Shown here one piece after another: positions 41,824 through 51,946 of a stretch of 64,000 nucleotides of DNA. The stretch is from contig NZ_CP054056.1 in the NCBI RefSeq assembly GCF_013283855.1, forward strand, positions 248,001 to 312,000, written 5' to 3'. Both the position numbers and the translations under genes were made by a program. Origin of the DNA: Aquiluna borgnonia (lineage in GTDB: Bacteria; Actinomycetota; Actinomycetes; Actinomycetales; Microbacteriaceae). How positions within the stretch are numbered: the stretch's first letter is position 1; every line of letters begins with the position of its first letter. The notes beneath the pieces are model-generated. The model did not search any database and was not told the origin of the DNA. It was given only the letters and a program-made list of their open reading frames with translations.

Positions 41824-42771
41824 ATGCTCGGCTTCCTCGCTCACCTCTTGCTCTAGGCCACAACGCTCAACTCCGACAACTCGGAACTTTCCGCTGATAG
41901 AAAGGCGAAGCACTAAAAATTCTGCCGGGGCTAGGGTTGCACCCTGGGCTATCTGCTCTCTGAGCTCTTTGGGCGCGGACAAGATAAAGGGCCTCAGCGC
42001 GCTGGGCAGTGCTGGGCGGTGGGTGCAGATTAGGCCGGATCGACTGGTTCCAATCAGATCCATCACCACGTCCAGGGTGCGAGCGGGCTTGCGCTGATTA
42101 GAAAACTCGGTCAGCTGATGCCGCTCAATCAGGGTGCGCTTTGCACTCTGCGCGTAGGGGGCGATGGTGTCGTGACAGCGTCGCCAGGGAGAGGTGATCA
42201 CGCGCTTAGGACCGTAGGCGGCAATCAAGGGGATCAGTCGCTGGGCTTGCTGGAGTCCCTCGGGAAGCAGTGGACGCTTTGCCTCTTGACCCGCCCAATC
42301 GCCCCTGGGGGTTGCCTTGGCATGGCGCAGAATTATCAGCGCTCTTGTCTCGAGCTCCTTTTTCTTGTGCAGGGCAATAACGTCTGCCATCAGCTTTTGG
42401 TCGTGCTCGTAGCTCAGCAGTGTCAGCGCCTGCTTGGCCTCAATCCACTCCACCTTGGCAATTTCTTGATTCGGCGTGAATTTTTGCTTGTTCAGTGCTT
42501 TGTCGGTAACTCGAGATGCCCAGTAGTGGACCTCTTTGTCCTGCCCATTGCCAACCTGGTAATTAATCACTCCAAGCTTGCGACCGAGCCGAACCCTAAA
42601 TCCTGCTTCCTCTTCGACCTCGCGAACTGCGGTCTGCGGCAAGAACTCACCCGGATCGAGCTTTCCCTTGGGGAAGCCCCAGTCTTGATACTTTTCTCGG
42701 TGCACGAGGGCGACAATCAGTTTGCCTTCGTGCTCTCGCCAGCAAACAACTCCGGCGGCGTAAATGGTCAC
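41821..42771 (-). CDS. mutT1: MutT1-type protein: Nudix hydrolase fused to histidine phosphatase
   Basis: The product has 316 residues from the GTG at 42771. The Nudix domain (about 1-140) has a complete box, GKLDPGEFLPQTAVREVEEEAGF. A SixA/RHG phosphatase domain (about 150-310) starts LIILRHAKATPRGDW and has a second His in ICTHRP. In mycobacteria this fusion (Rv2985) hydrolyses 8-oxo-dGTP and diadenosine polyphosphates and also lies next to ppk1. GTG shares its G with the ppk stop (TAGTG), giving tight coupling. Confidence 0.88.
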   Translation of the reverse strand: MTIYAAGVVCWREHEGKLIVALVHREKYQDWGFPKGKLDPGEFLPQTAVREVEEEAGFRVRLGRKLGVINYQVGNGQDKEVHYWASRVTDKALNKQKFTPNQEIAKVEWIEAKQALTLLSYEHDQKLMADVIALHKKKELETRALIILRHAKATPRGDWAGQEAKRPLLPEGLQQAQRLIPLIAAYGPKRVITSPWRRCHDTIAPYAQSAKRTLIERHQLTEFSNQRKPARTLDVVMDLIGTSRSGLICTHRPALPSALRPFILSAPKELREQIAQGATLAPAEFLVLRLSISGKFRVVGVERCGLEQEVSEEAEH

Positions 42772-44882
42772 TATCGAAGGCGCTTTCTGGCTAGGGTCTT
42801 TTCCATCAGGACATCCTGCATGTCCAAAAGTTTTTCCCCAACAACGTTGTGCGTCTCGCGCGACCAACCCCCGTTTGCCTTCAGTTCCCAAACCGCAACC
42901 GATTCGCTCATACCCAAATCAAAAATCTCGTGCAGCTGTCGAATCTGATCGGTTTGCGCAATCTTGACAAGCGCCTCGACTCTGCGGTCTAGGTTGCGGT
43001 GCATCATGTCGGCGCTTCCGATGAAGACATCCGGATCGCCTGCGTTATCAAAGGCAAAAATTCGGCTGTGTTCCAGGTAGCGGCCCAGCACCGAGTGAAC
43101 TCGGATGTGGTCTGATAGCCCAGGAACCCCAGGTCTGAGAGCACACATTCCGCGCACCAGAATTTCCACGCTGACGCCGGCCATTGAGGCCCGGTAAAGC
43201 TCGTCGATGATCTGCTCGTCAACCAAGGAGTTCATCTTGAAGCGAATTCGTGCGGATTTCCCTGCCTGGTGGTTGGCAATTTCGCGGCGGATGCGCTCGG
43301 TTAGCCCATCTCTGACGCCATTTGGAGAGACCAGCAGGCTTCGGTAATCCGGCGCTGCAGTGTGACCGGAGAGCTGGTTGAACAGCTTGGTCAGGTCTTC
43401 TCCAACGTTGGTCCTTGAAGTTAGTAGACCAAAGTCCTCGTAGAACCTGGCGGTCTTCGGGTTGTAGTTTCCGGTGCCGATGTGGCAGTAGCGCCTTAGG
43501 TTAGAGCCCTCCTGGCGAATTACCAGGGAGAGCTTGCAGTGGGTCTTCAGACCCACGATTCCGTAAACCACGTGAACGCCAGCGGCTTCGAGCTTGCGAG
43601 CCCAGCCGATGTTGTTCTGCTCATCGAAACGAGCCTTGATCTCGACCAGTGCCAGCACCTGCTTGCCGGCCTCGGCGGCGTCGATCAGAGCATCGACAAT
43701 TGGTGAGTCACCGCTGGTGCGGTAGAGGGTCTGCTTGATGGCAAGAACCTGAGGGTCAGCAGCGGCCTGCTCCAAAAATGCCTGAACACTGGTGGCAAAT
43801 GATTCGTAGGGGTGGTGAACCAAAACCTCCCGCTCCCGCAGCGAAGCAAAGATATCGGCTGCCTCGTCTGGGTCAGATTCCAGATAGCGGTTGGTGGTCT
43901 TTGGGTGAGCCTCGTAGTGAAGTTCGGGGATAGGCAGGAATGCAAATGCACTCATGCTCTTTAGATCCAGCGGCTCTGGCAGGTGGTAAACGTCAGATGG
44001 CTCGATGTCAAGTTCGCGCTGTAGCAGGCTCAGGACCTGAGGATCGATGTCCTGCGCGACTTCCAGGCGCACAGGGGGACCAAAGCGGCGGCGCAGCAGC
44101 TCCTTCTCAAGCTGAATGAGTAGGTTTTCGCCCTCATCTTCATCCACCTCGAGATCCTCATTGCGGGTGACGCGGAAGGTGTGGTGCTGAAGTACTTCCA
44201 TTCCGGGGAACAGTTCGGTCAGGTGCTGTCCCATAACGTCCTCGAGAGGAACAAAGCGAGACTCGCTGCCTGAAACCTTCACGTATCTGGGCAAAAGTGG
44301 CGGGACCTTGACTCTGGCGAAGTGCTCCGCCTTGGAGTTTGGGTTTCTCAGCACGACGGCCAGGTTTAGTGAAAGCCCCGAGATGTAGGGGAATGGGTGG
44401 GCAGGGTCAACCGCCAAGGGGGTGAGAACTGGGAACACCTGCGATATGAAGTAATCCCGAAGGCCATTTTTCTCCGCGTCGCTCAGCGATGCCCAGTGTT
44501 CTATCTGAATGCCGTGTGCGGCCAGTGCGGGACCAAGGGTCTGGGTGTAGAGATTGGCATGTCTTTTTTGCAGCTCAAGGGTTCGCTCAGAGATTTGGGA
44601 GAGCACTTCCTGGGGGCTAAGTCCAGATGCTGACATCACGGCGATACCGGTTGCGATTCTGCGCTTCAAAGAAGCAACCCGAACCATGAAAAACTCATCC
44701 AGGTTTGACGCAAAGATGCTCAGGTAGTTGATCCGCTCAAGCAGGGGTACTGACTCATCCTCAGCAAGATCCAGAACCCGCTTGTTGAAGTCCAGCCAGC
44801 TCAATTCACGATCGAGAAAGCGATCAGCAGGCAGATCTGGCTGGCTCTCCGGCAAGAAAATTGCTGTGGTCTCTTCTGACAT
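42771..44882 (-). CDS. ppk: Polyphosphate kinase
   Basis: The product has 703 residues with the four PPK1 domains. The N-terminal helical part has [18 protein letters not shown]; the head and phospholipase D-like catalytic domains follow with [41 protein letters not shown] and the autophosphorylated histidine region [22 protein letters not shown]. It makes polyphosphate reversibly from ATP. A direct-repeat Pho-type box lies 22-40 nt upstream, and mutT1 follows in the same operon. Confidence 0.96.
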
Positions 44883-44903
44883 GGGTCCTATCTTTTCACC
44901 TCA

Positions 44904-44922
44904 GGGTTAGCAAGAGGTTAAC
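44904..44922 (-). promoter_or_regulatory. Pho-type direct-repeat box upstream of ppk
   Basis: GTTAACCTCTTGCTAACCC on the minus strand contains two 11-nt-spaced repeats (GTTAACC/GCTAACC). It differs at only two of 19 positions from the box between phoU and senX3. It ends 21 nt before the ppk ATG and abuts the glnR stop codon. Likely bound by the RegX3 encoded in this window. Confidence 0.6.
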
Positions 44923-45581
44923 TATTCGCTTGCGTTGCCCTGGGGATCCAGTCGATATCCGACGTTCCTTACGGTGCCGATCAGCGATTCGTGCTCACCA
45001 AGCTTGGCTCGCAACCGCCTGACGTGAACGTCAACGGTTCTGGTTCCGCCGAAGTAGTCATAACCCCAAACCTCGCTCAACAGCTGCTCGCGGCTGAAAA
45101 CCCGGTTTGGATTGTCGTTGAGGTGACGAAGCAGCTCGAATTCCTTGAATGTGAGGTCCAGGGTGCGGCCATTGATTTTTGCCGTGAAGCTGCTTTCATC
45201 GATACTCAAACCAGTGTCAACGCCGCCGCTTTGCTGTTGCCTTTGAGCCGACAGCGCCAGGCGAATTCGGGTGTCGACTTCGCCGATGCTGGCACCCTCG
45301 AGCAGAAAATCCGTAAGACCCCAGTCTTGGTTAATGGCGGCTAGCGAGCCTTCCCCGATTACCAGCACCAAAGGGGTCTGCCAGCCCGCAGCCTCAAGAA
45401 TCTTGGCCACCGACTTGGCTCCAGAGAGCTGGTGGCGGCAATCCAAGAAAGTTAGATCGTGCCTGGGGGCAGCGGCAAGCTTTGCAGGATCAAAATCCAC
45501 CCGGGAGATTTGGTGCCCTAAAAAGTCCAGAGCTGGAAGTGGGTTGTCTTCAGCGGGCGTTATGAGCAAAATTCCTGCCAT
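44922..45581 (-). CDS. glnR: GlnR-type atypical OmpR-family response regulator
   Basis: The product has 219 residues. The N-terminal receiver-like domain is divergent: it lacks the usual acidic pair, though Asp47 (FLDCRH) remains. The C-terminal winged helix (about 125-215) has FKEFELLRHLNDNPNRVFSREQLLSEVWGYDYFGGTRTVDVHVRRLRAKLG and ends LIGTVRNVGYRLDP, typical of actinobacterial GlnR (Rv0818), the nitrogen-assimilation regulator. No cognate kinase is adjacent, as expected for GlnR. Its target genes (glnA, amtB) are not in the window. Confidence 0.82.
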   Translation of the reverse strand: MAGILLITPAEDNPLPALDFLGHQISRVDFDPAKLAAAPRHDLTFLDCRHQLSGAKSVAKILEAAGWQTPLVLVIGEGSLAAINQDWGLTDFLLEGASIGEVDTRIRLALSAQRQQQSGGVDTGLSIDESSFTAKINGRTLDLTFKEFELLRHLNDNPNRVFSREQLLSEVWGYDYFGGTRTVDVHVRRLRAKLGEHESLIGTVRNVGYRLDPQGNASE

Positions 45582-49380: not shown

Positions 49381-50028
49381 CTAGTTGTCAGTCCATTCGC
49401 CGGTCTGCAGGAAGCTGACCTTCGAGGAGATGTCAACCACGTGGTCCGCAAAGCGCTCAAAGTAGCGTGAGGCCAGCGTCACATCAACGGTGAACATCGC
49501 ATTTTCTTTCCAGTCTGGAGCTAGCACAACCTCGAATACTCTGCGGTGCAGGCGGTCAACGGCCTCATCCTGAGCCTGGATTTCGCGGGCTAGATCCAGA
49601 TCGGTGTTTGCCAGCAGCTTGGCCGCCTTGGCAACCAGTTCAAGGTCTAGTCGAGCCATGTCTTCAAAAGTCTTGCGAAGTGACTCTGGGATGGCACTTC
49701 CTGGGTAGCGGTAGCGAGCAATGGCCGCGATGTGGGAGGCGAGCGAACCCATGCGCTCCAGCGATGCCGACATTCTCAGGGCAGAAACCAATATTCTCAG
49801 GTCTCGTGCGACTGGGCTCTCGGTGGAGAGCACGCGAATCACGAGTTCATCCAAGTCCAGCGCGCGAGACTCATTTGCCTCAGCCAGCGCCAGTGCTTCG
49901 TCAGCGAGGGTCACATCTGAATTCAAAAAGGCACGAGATGCCTTGTCCATGATGGTCCCGGCAGTTTCTGCGAGAGTGATGAGCCTAATCTGAACCTCAG
50001 AAAGCTCCTGCTGGAAAATGTTTCTCAT
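49381..50028 (-). CDS. phoU: PhoU phosphate-signalling regulator
   Basis: The product has 215 residues, two tandem three-helix PhoU repeats (about 5-105 and 110-205) with the repeated pattern of acidic residues that bind metals (RALDLDELVIRVLSTESPVARDLRILVSALRMSASLERMGSLASHIAAIA). PhoU links the Pst transporter to the phosphate kinase and represses the Pho response when phosphate is ample. GGAGGGG precedes the ATG. Divergent from senX3 with Pho-type boxes between them. Confidence 0.95.
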   Translation of the reverse strand: MRNIFQQELSEVQIRLITLAETAGTIMDKASRAFLNSDVTLADEALALAEANESRALDLDELVIRVLSTESPVARDLRILVSALRMSASLERMGSLASHIAAIARYRYPGSAIPESLRKTFEDMARLDLELVAKAAKLLANTDLDLAREIQAQDEAVDRLHRRVFEVVLAPDWKENAMFTVDVTLASRYFERFADHVVDISSKVSFLQTGEWTDN

Positions 50029-50084: not shown

Positions 50085-50103
50085 GTTAACTTGTTGCTAA
50101 CCC
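50085..50103 (+). promoter_or_regulatory. Pho-type direct-repeat box between phoU and senX3
   Basis: GTTAACTTGTTGCTAACCC contains repeats at 11-nt spacing and matches the ppk box at 17 of 19 positions. It lies 57 bp from the phoU start and about 100 bp from senX3, so it could autoregulate either. Confidence 0.6.
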
Positions 50104-50136
50104 AACTCAAACACCGCAAGCAGTTTCTCGCTTGCT

Positions 50137-50149
50137 CTCTAGTCTAGAG
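50137..50149. repeat. 13-bp palindrome CTCTAGTCTAGAG in the phoU-senX3 region
   Basis: Perfect arms of 6 around one T. It contains TAGTCT and TAGAGT, both -10-like, so it may mark a promoter rather than an operator. A GCAAGC/GCTTGC repeat (50116-50135) lies just upstream. Confidence 0.35.
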
Positions 50150-50162
50150 TCGGAACAGATTA

Positions 50163-50181
50163 GTTAACCTGGTAAACATTG
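50163..50181 (+). promoter_or_regulatory. Possible second, weaker Pho-type half box
   Basis: GTTAACCTGGTAAACATTG has one good repeat (GTTAACC) and one poor repeat at the 11-nt spacing, just upstream of senX3. Confidence 0.35.
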
Positions 50182-50206: not shown

Positions 50207-51265
50207 GTGGGATTTATTGCAGCCCGCCGCGTTGCCAAAGAGGTTGAGTCTGAGTTCCAAGCTTTTCAAACTGTTGCCTCTCAGGTCGTGGACGTAATTG
50301 CAACCGCAGGGGTTGTGCTAGACCAGTTCAATAACGTGGTGCGAGCATCTCCCGGTGCCGTTCAATTTGGGCTTGTGCAAAACCGCCGCTTGATTCACGC
50401 GGCCCTTGTGAAACTCGTCGACCGCGCTCGCATTTCCTCTGGTGCGGTGAAAGAGGATGTTGTCTTGGAGACCGGACTGCGCCGAGACCAGGTCTGGGTC
50501 GATGCCAGAGCTGCAAGGTTCGGCGAAAACTACGTGATGCTGATCGTTGAAGACCGCACCGAGTCAAAAAAACTCGAGGACACCAGGCGAGACTTTGTGG
50601 CGAATGTTTCCCATGAGCTCAAAACCCCAATTGGAGCAATCGGACTGCTGGCCGAGGCAATTGTGGGAGCTGCGGATGACCCTCAGATGGTTCAGAAGTT
50701 TGCCGGTTCCATGCAGAAGGAATCCCAGCGCCTTGCAAACCTAGTGCAGGAGCTGATCCAGCTCTCTAAGGTCCAGGGTGCAAAACTCGGCGAGAACACT
50801 GTCAGTATTGACCTAGCCGCCGCCATCACCGATGCCGTGGAGCGCAACCACCTGCTGGCTGAGCAGCGCAACATCAAGGTGGTTTCAGCAGCCGAACCTG
50901 GCGTCAAAATTCGCGGGGACTACGAGATGCTGACCACCGCAATCCGAAACCTCATCGAAAACGCCATCGTCTACTCCAATCCTGGTTCACAGGTTGGAGT
51001 CGGGCTTCGTGAGGTTGAGGGCATAGCTGAAATTGCTATCACCGACTCCGGTATTGGAATCCCTGAAAGCGAGCAGGAGCGCATCTTTGAGCGCTTCTAC
51101 CGGGTTGACCCCTCTCGCTCGAGGGAAACCGGTGGCACCGGGCTAGGACTTTCCATCGTCAAGCACACCGCGCTGAACCATGGCGGCGAGGTCAGATTGT
51201 TTTCCAAGGTGGGGATAGGCTCCACCTTTACGTTCCGAGTACCAATTGAAAATCAGGAGAGCTAA
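50207..51265 (+). CDS. senX3: SenX3-type phosphate sensor kinase lacking transmembrane helices
   Basis: The product has 352 residues from the GTG at 50207, which follows AGAGG; a GTG at 50186 would add seven residues. A PAS-like domain (about 25-120: VVLDQFNNVVRASPGAVQFG) precedes HisKA with His136 in ANVSHELKTPIGAIGLLAEA and the HATPase (NLIENAIVYSNPGSQ, DSGIGIPESEQERIFERFYRVDPSRSRETGGTGLGLSI). SenX3 with RegX3 senses phosphate limitation. Known SenX3/PhoR proteins have N-terminal membrane helices; here none is encoded, and an in-frame stop at 50165-50167 excludes a longer protein. regX3 follows immediately. Confidence 0.9.
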   Translation: MGFIAARRVAKEVESEFQAFQTVASQVVDVIATAGVVLDQFNNVVRASPGAVQFGLVQNRRLIHAALVKLVDRARISSGAVKEDVVLETGLRRDQVWVDARAARFGENYVMLIVEDRTESKKLEDTRRDFVANVSHELKTPIGAIGLLAEAIVGAADDPQMVQKFAGSMQKESQRLANLVQELIQLSKVQGAKLGENTVSIDLAAAITDAVERNHLLAEQRNIKVVSAAEPGVKIRGDYEMLTTAIRNLIENAIVYSNPGSQVGVGLREVEGIAEIAITDSGIGIPESEQERIFERFYRVDPSRSRETGGTGLGLSIVKHTALNHGGEVRLFSKVGIGSTFTFRVPIENQES

Positions 51266-51946
51266 ATGACCCGAGTATTGGTAGTTGAAGACGAAATCAA
51301 CCTGAGAGAGCCGCTGGTATATCTGCTTCAGCGTGAGGGCTATGACGTCATTGAAGCGGAAGACGGCAATGCCGCTCTGGAGCTGTTCCAGAGCATGGGT
51401 GCCGATCTGGTGCTCCTGGACCTGATGTTGCCTGGGCTTTCGGGAAATGAAGTTTGCCGCGCCATCCGTGCCGAGAGCTCGGTTCCGGTAATCATGGTGA
51501 CAGCCAAAGATACGGAAATCGACAAGGTTGTTGGACTTGAAATTGGTGCGGACGACTACGTGACCAAGCCCTACTCAACTCGAGAGCTCTTAGCCCGCAT
51601 GAAGGCGGTTTTGCGTCGCGGAGCGGAGCCTCAGGTGGCTGAGTTTGGTGTCCTGAAGGCAGGACCGGTAGTAATGGACATCGAACGTCACGTGGTTACC
51701 GTCAACGGGGAAAAGGTTCAAATGCCTCTGAAGGAGTTTGAGCTCCTGGAGCTACTGATGGAAAACGTGAACCGAGTGCTTACGCGTGGTCAGATCATCG
51801 ATCGCGTGTGGGGTTCAAACTACTTTGGTGACACCAAGACCCTGGATGTTCACGTGAAGCGCATTCGCTCCAAGATTGAGGAAGACCCTGCTCGTCCACG
51901 CCACCTGCTGACGGTTCGCGGCTTGGGTTATAAGTTCGAGGTTTAG
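51266..51946 (+). CDS. regX3: RegX3, OmpR-family phosphate response regulator
   Basis: The product has 226 residues. The receiver has Glu8-Asp9-Glu10, phospho-acceptor Asp52 in LLDLMLPGLSG, and Lys in VTKPYSTREL. The winged helix (about 130-226) ends HLLTVRGLGYKFEV. It should bind the GTTAACC-type boxes upstream of ppk and between phoU and senX3. AGGAG 6 nt before the ATG lies in the end of senX3. Confidence 0.95.
   Translation: MTRVLVVEDEINLREPLVYLLQREGYDVIEAEDGNAALELFQSMGADLVLLDLMLPGLSGNEVCRAIRAESSVPVIMVTAKDTEIDKVVGLEIGADDYVTKPYSTRELLARMKAVLRRGAEPQVAEFGVLKAGPVVMDIERHVVTVNGEKVQMPLKEFELLELLMENVNRVLTRGQIIDRVWGSNYFGDTKTLDVHVKRIRSKIEEDPARPRHLLTVRGLGYKFEV

Follow-up and report, generated by a model that had tools for sequence, protein, structure and literature searches.

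The genome of Aquiluna borgnonia, a single contig of 1.36 Mb, contains two nearly identical 19-mers in the stretch of DNA analysed here (the window, 64,000 nucleotides, whose numbering is used throughout), one of them just upstream of the polyphosphate kinase gene ppk and the other between phoU and a senX3-type kinase gene. This arrangement raises the question of whether they are Pho boxes, which regulator reads them and which genes it would control. The earlier note on this DNA had described them as sharing 17 of 19 bases and the 11-nt spacing of direct repeats, and we have found both as claimed, GTTAACCTCTTGCTAACCC at 44904-44922 on the minus strand and GTTAACTTGTTGCTAACCC at 50085-50103 on the plus strand, with mismatches at 2 of the 19 bases. 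The features that accompany them on the two sides are the following.

42771 to 44882, minus strand: ppk, full-length polyphosphate kinase 1 (NF003922, 1159 bits against a cut-off of 981; four PP_kinase Pfam domains).
44890 to 44898, minus strand: ppk promoter, predicted extended -10 TGA-AAAGAT, lying 9 nt past the box and 7 nt upstream of the ATG, for which a leaderless transcript is predicted.
44905 to 44922, minus strand: ppk Pho box, GTTAACC-TCTT-GCTAACC, 11-nt spacing, 7+6 matches, 13/14 to two copies of GTTMACC.
44922 to 45581, minus strand: glnR-like gene for an OmpR-family regulator, upstream of ppk (PF21695 GlnR_1st, 97 bits against 27).
49381 to 50028, minus strand: phoU (TIGR02135, 140 bits against a cut-off of 130).
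50085 to 50113, plus strand: phoU-senX3 Pho box, GTTAACT-TGTT-GCTAACC, 12/14, with a weak third repeat, TCAAACA (50107-50113, 3/7).

Both boxes consist of 7-nt repeats with 4 nt between them (an 11-nt period), as PHO boxes do, with 7+6 of the 7+7 positions matched at ppk and 6+6 at senX3. When the joint pattern of GTTAACCTCTTGCTAACCC and GTTAACTTGTTGCTAACCC was searched with up to three mismatches, the 64 kb gave two matches, which are the pair itself, and 100 shuffled versions of the same 64 kb gave a mean of 0.08 matches, two matches being reached in one of them. Two GTTMACC heptamers at 11 nt, a consensus picked post hoc with the sites already seen, reached at least 12/14 in the ppk box (13) and the 50085 box (12) alone, with both strands of the window searched.

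The ppk box is conserved. Our genus set comprised 22 genomes, A. borgnonia included; judged by GlnR, Candidatus Aquiluna IMCC13023 and other Aquiluna MAGs are among the closest named relatives (66-68% identity), and the best match (71%) belongs to a MAG that bears the label Auritidibacter and that shares 64-86% identity with the window in the genes nearby as well. Among the 19 genus genomes with a readable ppk upstream region, a same-strand box of at least 11/14 was present within 60 nt of ppk in 17, including A. borgnonia, and the remaining two score 9, while none of 108 equally long upstream regions of six other genes, in which certain genomes are counted more than once, reached 11/14. This count leaves out L168, a duplicate place of the ppk of G005, which lies in two overlapping frames (G005:C2:579562-581671; L168, L169), a frameshift or an assembly error. 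The position is also conserved: the box ends 21-23 nt from the ppk ATG in 18/19 genomes (22 nt for the 18-mer of A. borgnonia), and an extended -10 of the form TGN-NANNAT occurs 6-7 nt upstream of the ATG in 19/19. We also examined 80 named loci of relatives, labelled mostly as Microbacteriaceae genera, of which 78 have a readable ppk upstream region. A box of at least 11 (200 nt, either strand) was found in 58 of these 78, two of them (L080, L083) on the opposite strand, and in 54 of 63 phoU upstream regions, Aquiluna-type loci making up 5 of the 78 and 4 of the 63. The control upstream regions of glnR, pgm, the THAP4-like gene, ygfZ, regX3, carD and the nudix gene, part of which lie within the preceding gene, reached this score in 12/434. 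These counts support the claim that ppk is a Pho target. They also make it hardly credible that the two 19-mers match by chance, a reading which can point to the loose searches described below, little or not enriched over their controls, but which has against it the conservation and spacing of the ppk box and the enrichment in the relatives.

Which regulator would read the boxes? The locus next to the second box, beside phoU on the opposite strand, offers an obvious candidate.

50140 to 50145, plus strand: putative -10 of senX3, TAGTCT, of which the first two letters and the last are invariant among 19 aligned genomes.
50163 to 50177, plus strand: inverted pair of RegX3-type half-sites, GTTAACC-T-GGTAAAC (7+6 of 14), 17 nt 3' of the putative -10.
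50207 to 51265, plus strand: senX3-type kinase (PAS-like, DHp and CA regions; HisKA and HATPase) without membrane anchor, the start codon being our choice.
51266 to 51946, plus strand: regX3 response regulator, whose best solved match is 2oqr (labelled regX3, 333 bits), followed by MtrA (204 bits).

Among the matches listed, no NCBIfam kinase or regulator model passed its cut-off for the senX3/regX3 pair, and the RegX3 name is given because of the 2oqr match (333 against 204 bits) and the gene order, phoU, the SenX3-type kinase and the regulator being adjacent, which is the gene context of a RegX3 regulon. The proposal that RegX3 is the likely reader is thus supported, as the regulator encoded beside the 50085 box has RegX3 as its best solved match.

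Control of ppk by RegX3 or PhoP is already published, as is the status of ppk as a Pho target in Streptomyces, Mycobacterium tuberculosis and Microlunatus, and the ppk box of Aquiluna looks like the wiring expected in this group, that is, a predicted site for the phosphate-starvation regulator. In Streptomyces, PHO boxes are reported before ppk and pstS (PMC7866108, PMC6988585), and the PhoP boxes of that genus share with those described here at least two direct repeat units of 11 nt and the ppk and pst targets; the core is GTTCACC in Streptomyces, whereas the Aquiluna half-site is often GTTAACC. In Aquiluna, moreover, RegX3 is the probable regulator, and the box occupies the place of a -35 element ahead of a ppk gene that seems leaderless. 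M. tuberculosis offers a related regulator and the same target gene: its ppk1 promoter is reported to carry a RegX3 motif (PMC7525159), and the control of ppk1 by SenX3-RegX3 is attributed to Sanyal 2013, as cited in PMC7525159 and PMC6754071. For the mycobacterial RegX3 motif, one paper describes inverted copies of GTGAAC separated by 5-7 nt (PMC7525159) and another gives GT/GTCAcc-n4-cG (PMC7884335), both citing for it one 2007 paper; by comparison, the Aquiluna ppk box is a direct repeat. In Microlunatus phosphovorus, GTTCACnnnnnGTTCaC is reported before ppk and pstS and bound in EMSA (PMC6754071); it has the same spacing and core as the Aquiluna boxes and lies before the same genes, but it is read by a different two-component regulator, PolR. 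An MtrA-type OmpR-family or PolR-like regulator as the reader of the Aquiluna boxes is accordingly conceivable from this near-identical motif, but we consider it very unlikely given that the boxes lie at the phoU-senX3-regX3 locus and before the pst genes and that the RegX3 match far exceeds that of MtrA.

GlnR deserves a separate consideration because the ppk box begins on the final base of the glnR TAG stop codon (44922), a contact which the earlier note took as a compact phosphate/nitrogen junction. The glnR-like product had 8hih and 8hig, which carry generic names, as best solved chains, and 4o1h, labelled GlnR, at 56 bits. If GlnR, alone or together with RegX3, read the box, ppk would be under nitrogen control beside the gene of its own regulator; GlnR sites likewise have an 11-nt period, the amtB site of A. 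borgnonia opens with a half (TTTAC) that resembles a Pho half-site, and in Streptomyces PhoP, GlnR and MtrA are reported to share sites (PMC7866108, PMC6988585). We examined the amtB upstream regions of the genus (L256-L275, one locus per genome) together with those of ppk. The GlnR box has the consensus GTnAC-n6-GAAAC. GAAAC is found before amtB in 20/20 genomes, NTNAC-N6-GAAAC in 13/20 and its strict GTNAC form in 6/20, the reversed pattern being found in 0/20, which is what would be expected of GlnR sites. Before ppk, in contrast, GAAAC is absent from the last 45 nt in 19/19 genomes and NTNAC-N6-GAAAC from the last 60 nt in 19/19, and on this basis GlnR was rejected as the reader of the ppk box, which instead matches the boxes of pstC and pstS; the probability left to GlnR control is small. 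The junction therefore stands as physical contact between the box and the glnR stop and, as the ppk box lacks the amtB-type GAAAC, this contact looks positional, a matter of gene order; glnR followed by ppk is indeed a common order among the rows listed for the relatives.

The earlier note had also expected matching sites before the pst genes, and these exist. The pst genes are located at ~902 kb, ~600 kb from ppk and senX3, and consist of two permease-like genes, named pstC and pstA by position and not by profile, followed by pstB, which is over its profile cut-off, and pstS, which at 193 bits is just below its cut-off of 205. (The names gyrB-like, protease-like, carD, ygfZ, THAP4-like, nudix, desaturase-like, pstC and pstA were all assigned by eye.) The box upstream of the first permease gene, pstC, reads GTTCACC-AGTC-GTTTACT-TACT-GTTTCAC, and that between pstB and pstS reads ATTAACC-TTTC-GTTCGCC. 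Because of the ~600 kb that separate these genes from ppk, the regulon is not local, as had been proposed. In a genome-wide search, GTTAACNNNNNGCTAACC with 3 mismatches showed no enrichment (402 matches against 460 for the reversed pattern; inspection was among the matches listed). A widened pattern, RTTHACYNNNNGYTHRCY, with 0 mismatches gave 9 matches against 2 for the reversed control: four before ppk, senX3, pstC and pstS, one upstream of a gyrB-like gene but facing away from it, and four in coding frames. As this pattern was widened once the pst sites were known, its recovery of them is not independent; moreover, over the 22 genus genomes it gave 119 matches against 65 for the control, so that single matches are weak evidence and the pattern is useful only together with position. 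By eye, we recognised no alkaline phosphatase gene beside the box matches of this genome, and a one-mismatch box (L002) was rejected as a member of the regulon since it lies inside a protease-like frame. The extent of the regulon past ppk and pst is thus uncertain.

Three further observations were made in the genus. A box, GTTTACCTGCCGTTAACC, and its variants lie between small uncharacterised genes near a desaturase-like gene in four genomes, where they mark a possible member of the regulon (L282 1478-1495, L283 1496-1513, L288 1479-1496 and L289 1497-1514, the same 18-mer occurring in G010 and G021). In L170-L172, L174-L176, L178, L183, L185, L186 and L188, pstS comes after a nudix-like gene and the ppk end, whereas ppk and pst are ~600 kb apart in A. 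borgnonia. Finally, a second, weakly PstS-like gene follows pstS at L149 136-1179 (TIGR00975, 3.8e-10, below cut-off).

Judged from the sequences, the boxes are real, and for ppk and pst their reading as Pho sites is sound. The ppk layout suggests an activator at the -35 position and a leaderless message that begins at a predicted start site. Under phosphate scarcity, phosphorylated RegX3 would bind the box at 44905-44922, one molecule behind the other in head-to-tail fashion along the pair of 11-nt repeats, where it would stand in for a -35 element. From there it would recruit the polymerase to the extended -10, which lies nine bases further on, giving a leaderless ppk transcript; it would also turn on pstC and pstS and, through the 50085 box, its own operon region. 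We regard as highly probable the joint explanation in which the ppk Pho box is bound by RegX3~P, with shared control of pst and senX3 and a second, inverted site at senX3. It rests on sequence, spacing, conservation, the motif shared with pst and the identity of RegX3, from which we infer that RegX3 binds, in which direction it regulates, where transcription starts and which protein reads the palindrome.

The box between phoU and senX3 behaves differently from that of ppk. Scored with a matrix that combines 17 sites of ppk and 6 of pst, the 50085 box reaches 20.8 bits in A. borgnonia, while the other 18 genus genomes reach a maximum of 11.5 on either strand and remain below 8 in 17/18. Here it scores far better on the senX3 strand (20.8 against 3.4), but the phoU strand scores better in 5/18 of the other genomes, and in the relatives the matches in this region are mostly on the phoU strand. 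Across the genus, A/T-rich tracts recur here with an 11-nt period, as judged by eye, and a TANNNT hexamer is kept. The near-identity of the two boxes is thus peculiar to A. borgnonia, and the weak scores of the element in the 18 other genomes argue against a strong conserved autoregulation.

A second element of this region is conserved in the genus. The stretch 50163-50181, which had been described as a weaker copy of the box, is not a direct repeat (its second heptamer matches 2/7, giving 7+2 of 14); instead, 50163-50177 is an inverted repeat. Each of its arms is a GTTHACY half-site, with the fourth base variable as in the direct-repeat boxes, and 3 nt separate the hexamers. Its general form, GTTHACYNRGTDAAC, is found at the senX3 place in 18/19 of the genus genomes having the region, with a changed version in G017; G003, G012 and G015 were left out of this count because the region or the gene is absent from the assembly. 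Across the genus this form occurs 28 times and its reversed version 8 times. Ten of the 28 copies lie elsewhere, of which the nine inspected are all in coding frames and the tenth is in G011 contig 31. In the phoU-senX3 region, the palindrome is absent from the 27 loci of other genera examined and from L107. The mycobacterial inverted GTGAAC repeat described above partly fits it, the spacer being 3 nt and not 5-7.

Lying ~11-25 nt inside the predicted senX3 transcript, the palindrome would most likely act as another RegX3 site, in inverted form, through which the expression of senX3-regX3 is limited; that it lies 17 nt downstream of the putative -10 suggests repression. It could instead serve some unrelated repressor as an operator, or form a hairpin in the leader RNA of senX3, a possibility that we take seriously but do not favour: it agrees with a location within the predicted transcript, and the binding of RegX3 is deduced from the half-sites, but it leaves unexplained that the arms are GTTHACY half-sites. 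In addition, the fourth base is unpaired in 10/18 genomes (a hand count of 18 sequences), which argues against a hairpin and led us to reject it. A glycolipid regulon for the palindrome was also rejected. One-mismatch copies occur in A. borgnonia upstream of glycosyltransferase-like and UDP-sugar dehydrogenase-like genes, both named by eye, but the site upstream of the dehydrogenase-like gene (10/14 here) exceeds 10/14 in 0/14 other readable genus genomes, with a degenerate 9/14 version at the same offset in four of them (L322-L325). Directly 5' of the glycosyltransferase-like gene of A. borgnonia lies GTAAACCTGGTAAAC (L205 1501-1515), one mismatch from the palindrome.

The kinase encoded downstream of the second, inverted RegX3 site proposed here is also unusual. 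With a cut-off of KD >1.6 over 19 residues, an N-terminal hydrophobic segment was found in 0/19 genus SenX3 proteins with a complete 5' end (window 50207-51265; L119-L139, without L121 and L132, which contig ends truncate). In one of the genomes, G002, an open frame extends upstream across the senX3 promoter and contains a stretch of KD 1.57, just below the cut-off; we took this extension as untranslated. All the other SenX3 proteins examined carried a membrane segment: 59/59 from named loci (63 of the 80 passed the score filter, 4 of them Aquiluna-type) and 27/27 from further loci of a family sample, these being the best-scoring among the 137 genomes that gave a match out of 150 sampled, with possible species overlap with the 59. 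The 27 include g81, which by SenX3 score is the closest genus. Judged from these comparisons, the SenX3 of the genus seems to have lost its membrane anchor, its start lying ~35 residues ahead of the PAS-like region. With Pfam at 0.001, HisKA and HATPase were found in this protein, but a PAS domain was not. Its AlphaFold2 model (41 sequences) has a mean pLDDT of 79.9 and a pTM of 0.54, and in it residues 34-116 show by eye a strand-helix order that looks PAS-like, followed by the kinase core. The best solved matches to the model were WalK (9a5d), with 366 columns, and 4i5s, which we take to be a PAS kinase, with 355 columns.

An engineered counterpart exists. In M. smegmatis, a SenX3 lacking the membrane segment (SD1) is reported to sense phosphate if its PAS is kept, with PhoU proposed as the sensor (PMC12301784). 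The Aquiluna SenX3 resembles SD1 in that it has no membrane segment and retains the DHp and CA regions, next to a predicted PAS-like one; unlike SD1, a deletion for which phosphate sensing was demonstrated, it is natural, genus-wide and a putative phosphate sensor. A literature search that reached few subscription papers returned no title on a natural membrane-free SenX3. For Aquiluna itself, transcripts of pst and phoU and the lack of Pit genes have been reported (PMC12422013, 2025).

Unexpected here are the genus-specific palindrome and the apparently membrane-free sensor. Tentatively, and with less than even confidence, we propose that at the base of Aquiluna SenX3 turned soluble, while the same stretch of DNA gained an inverted site for RegX3 shortly after the start of the senX3 transcript. 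PhoU alone would then provide internal phosphate sensing without the Pst membrane complex, a RegX3 roadblock would limit the sensor and ppk and pst would be activated via direct repeats, so that one half-site in two geometries would have opposite outcomes.

With these results, the Pho wiring of ppk and pst is extended to an actinobacterial genus of small genome size, for which a precise promoter layout can be predicted. Furthermore, the membrane-free SenX3 would represent a natural counterpart of the 2025 M. smegmatis deletion reported to keep phosphate sensing (PMC12301784), and as such it may bear on whether Pst must touch the kinase.
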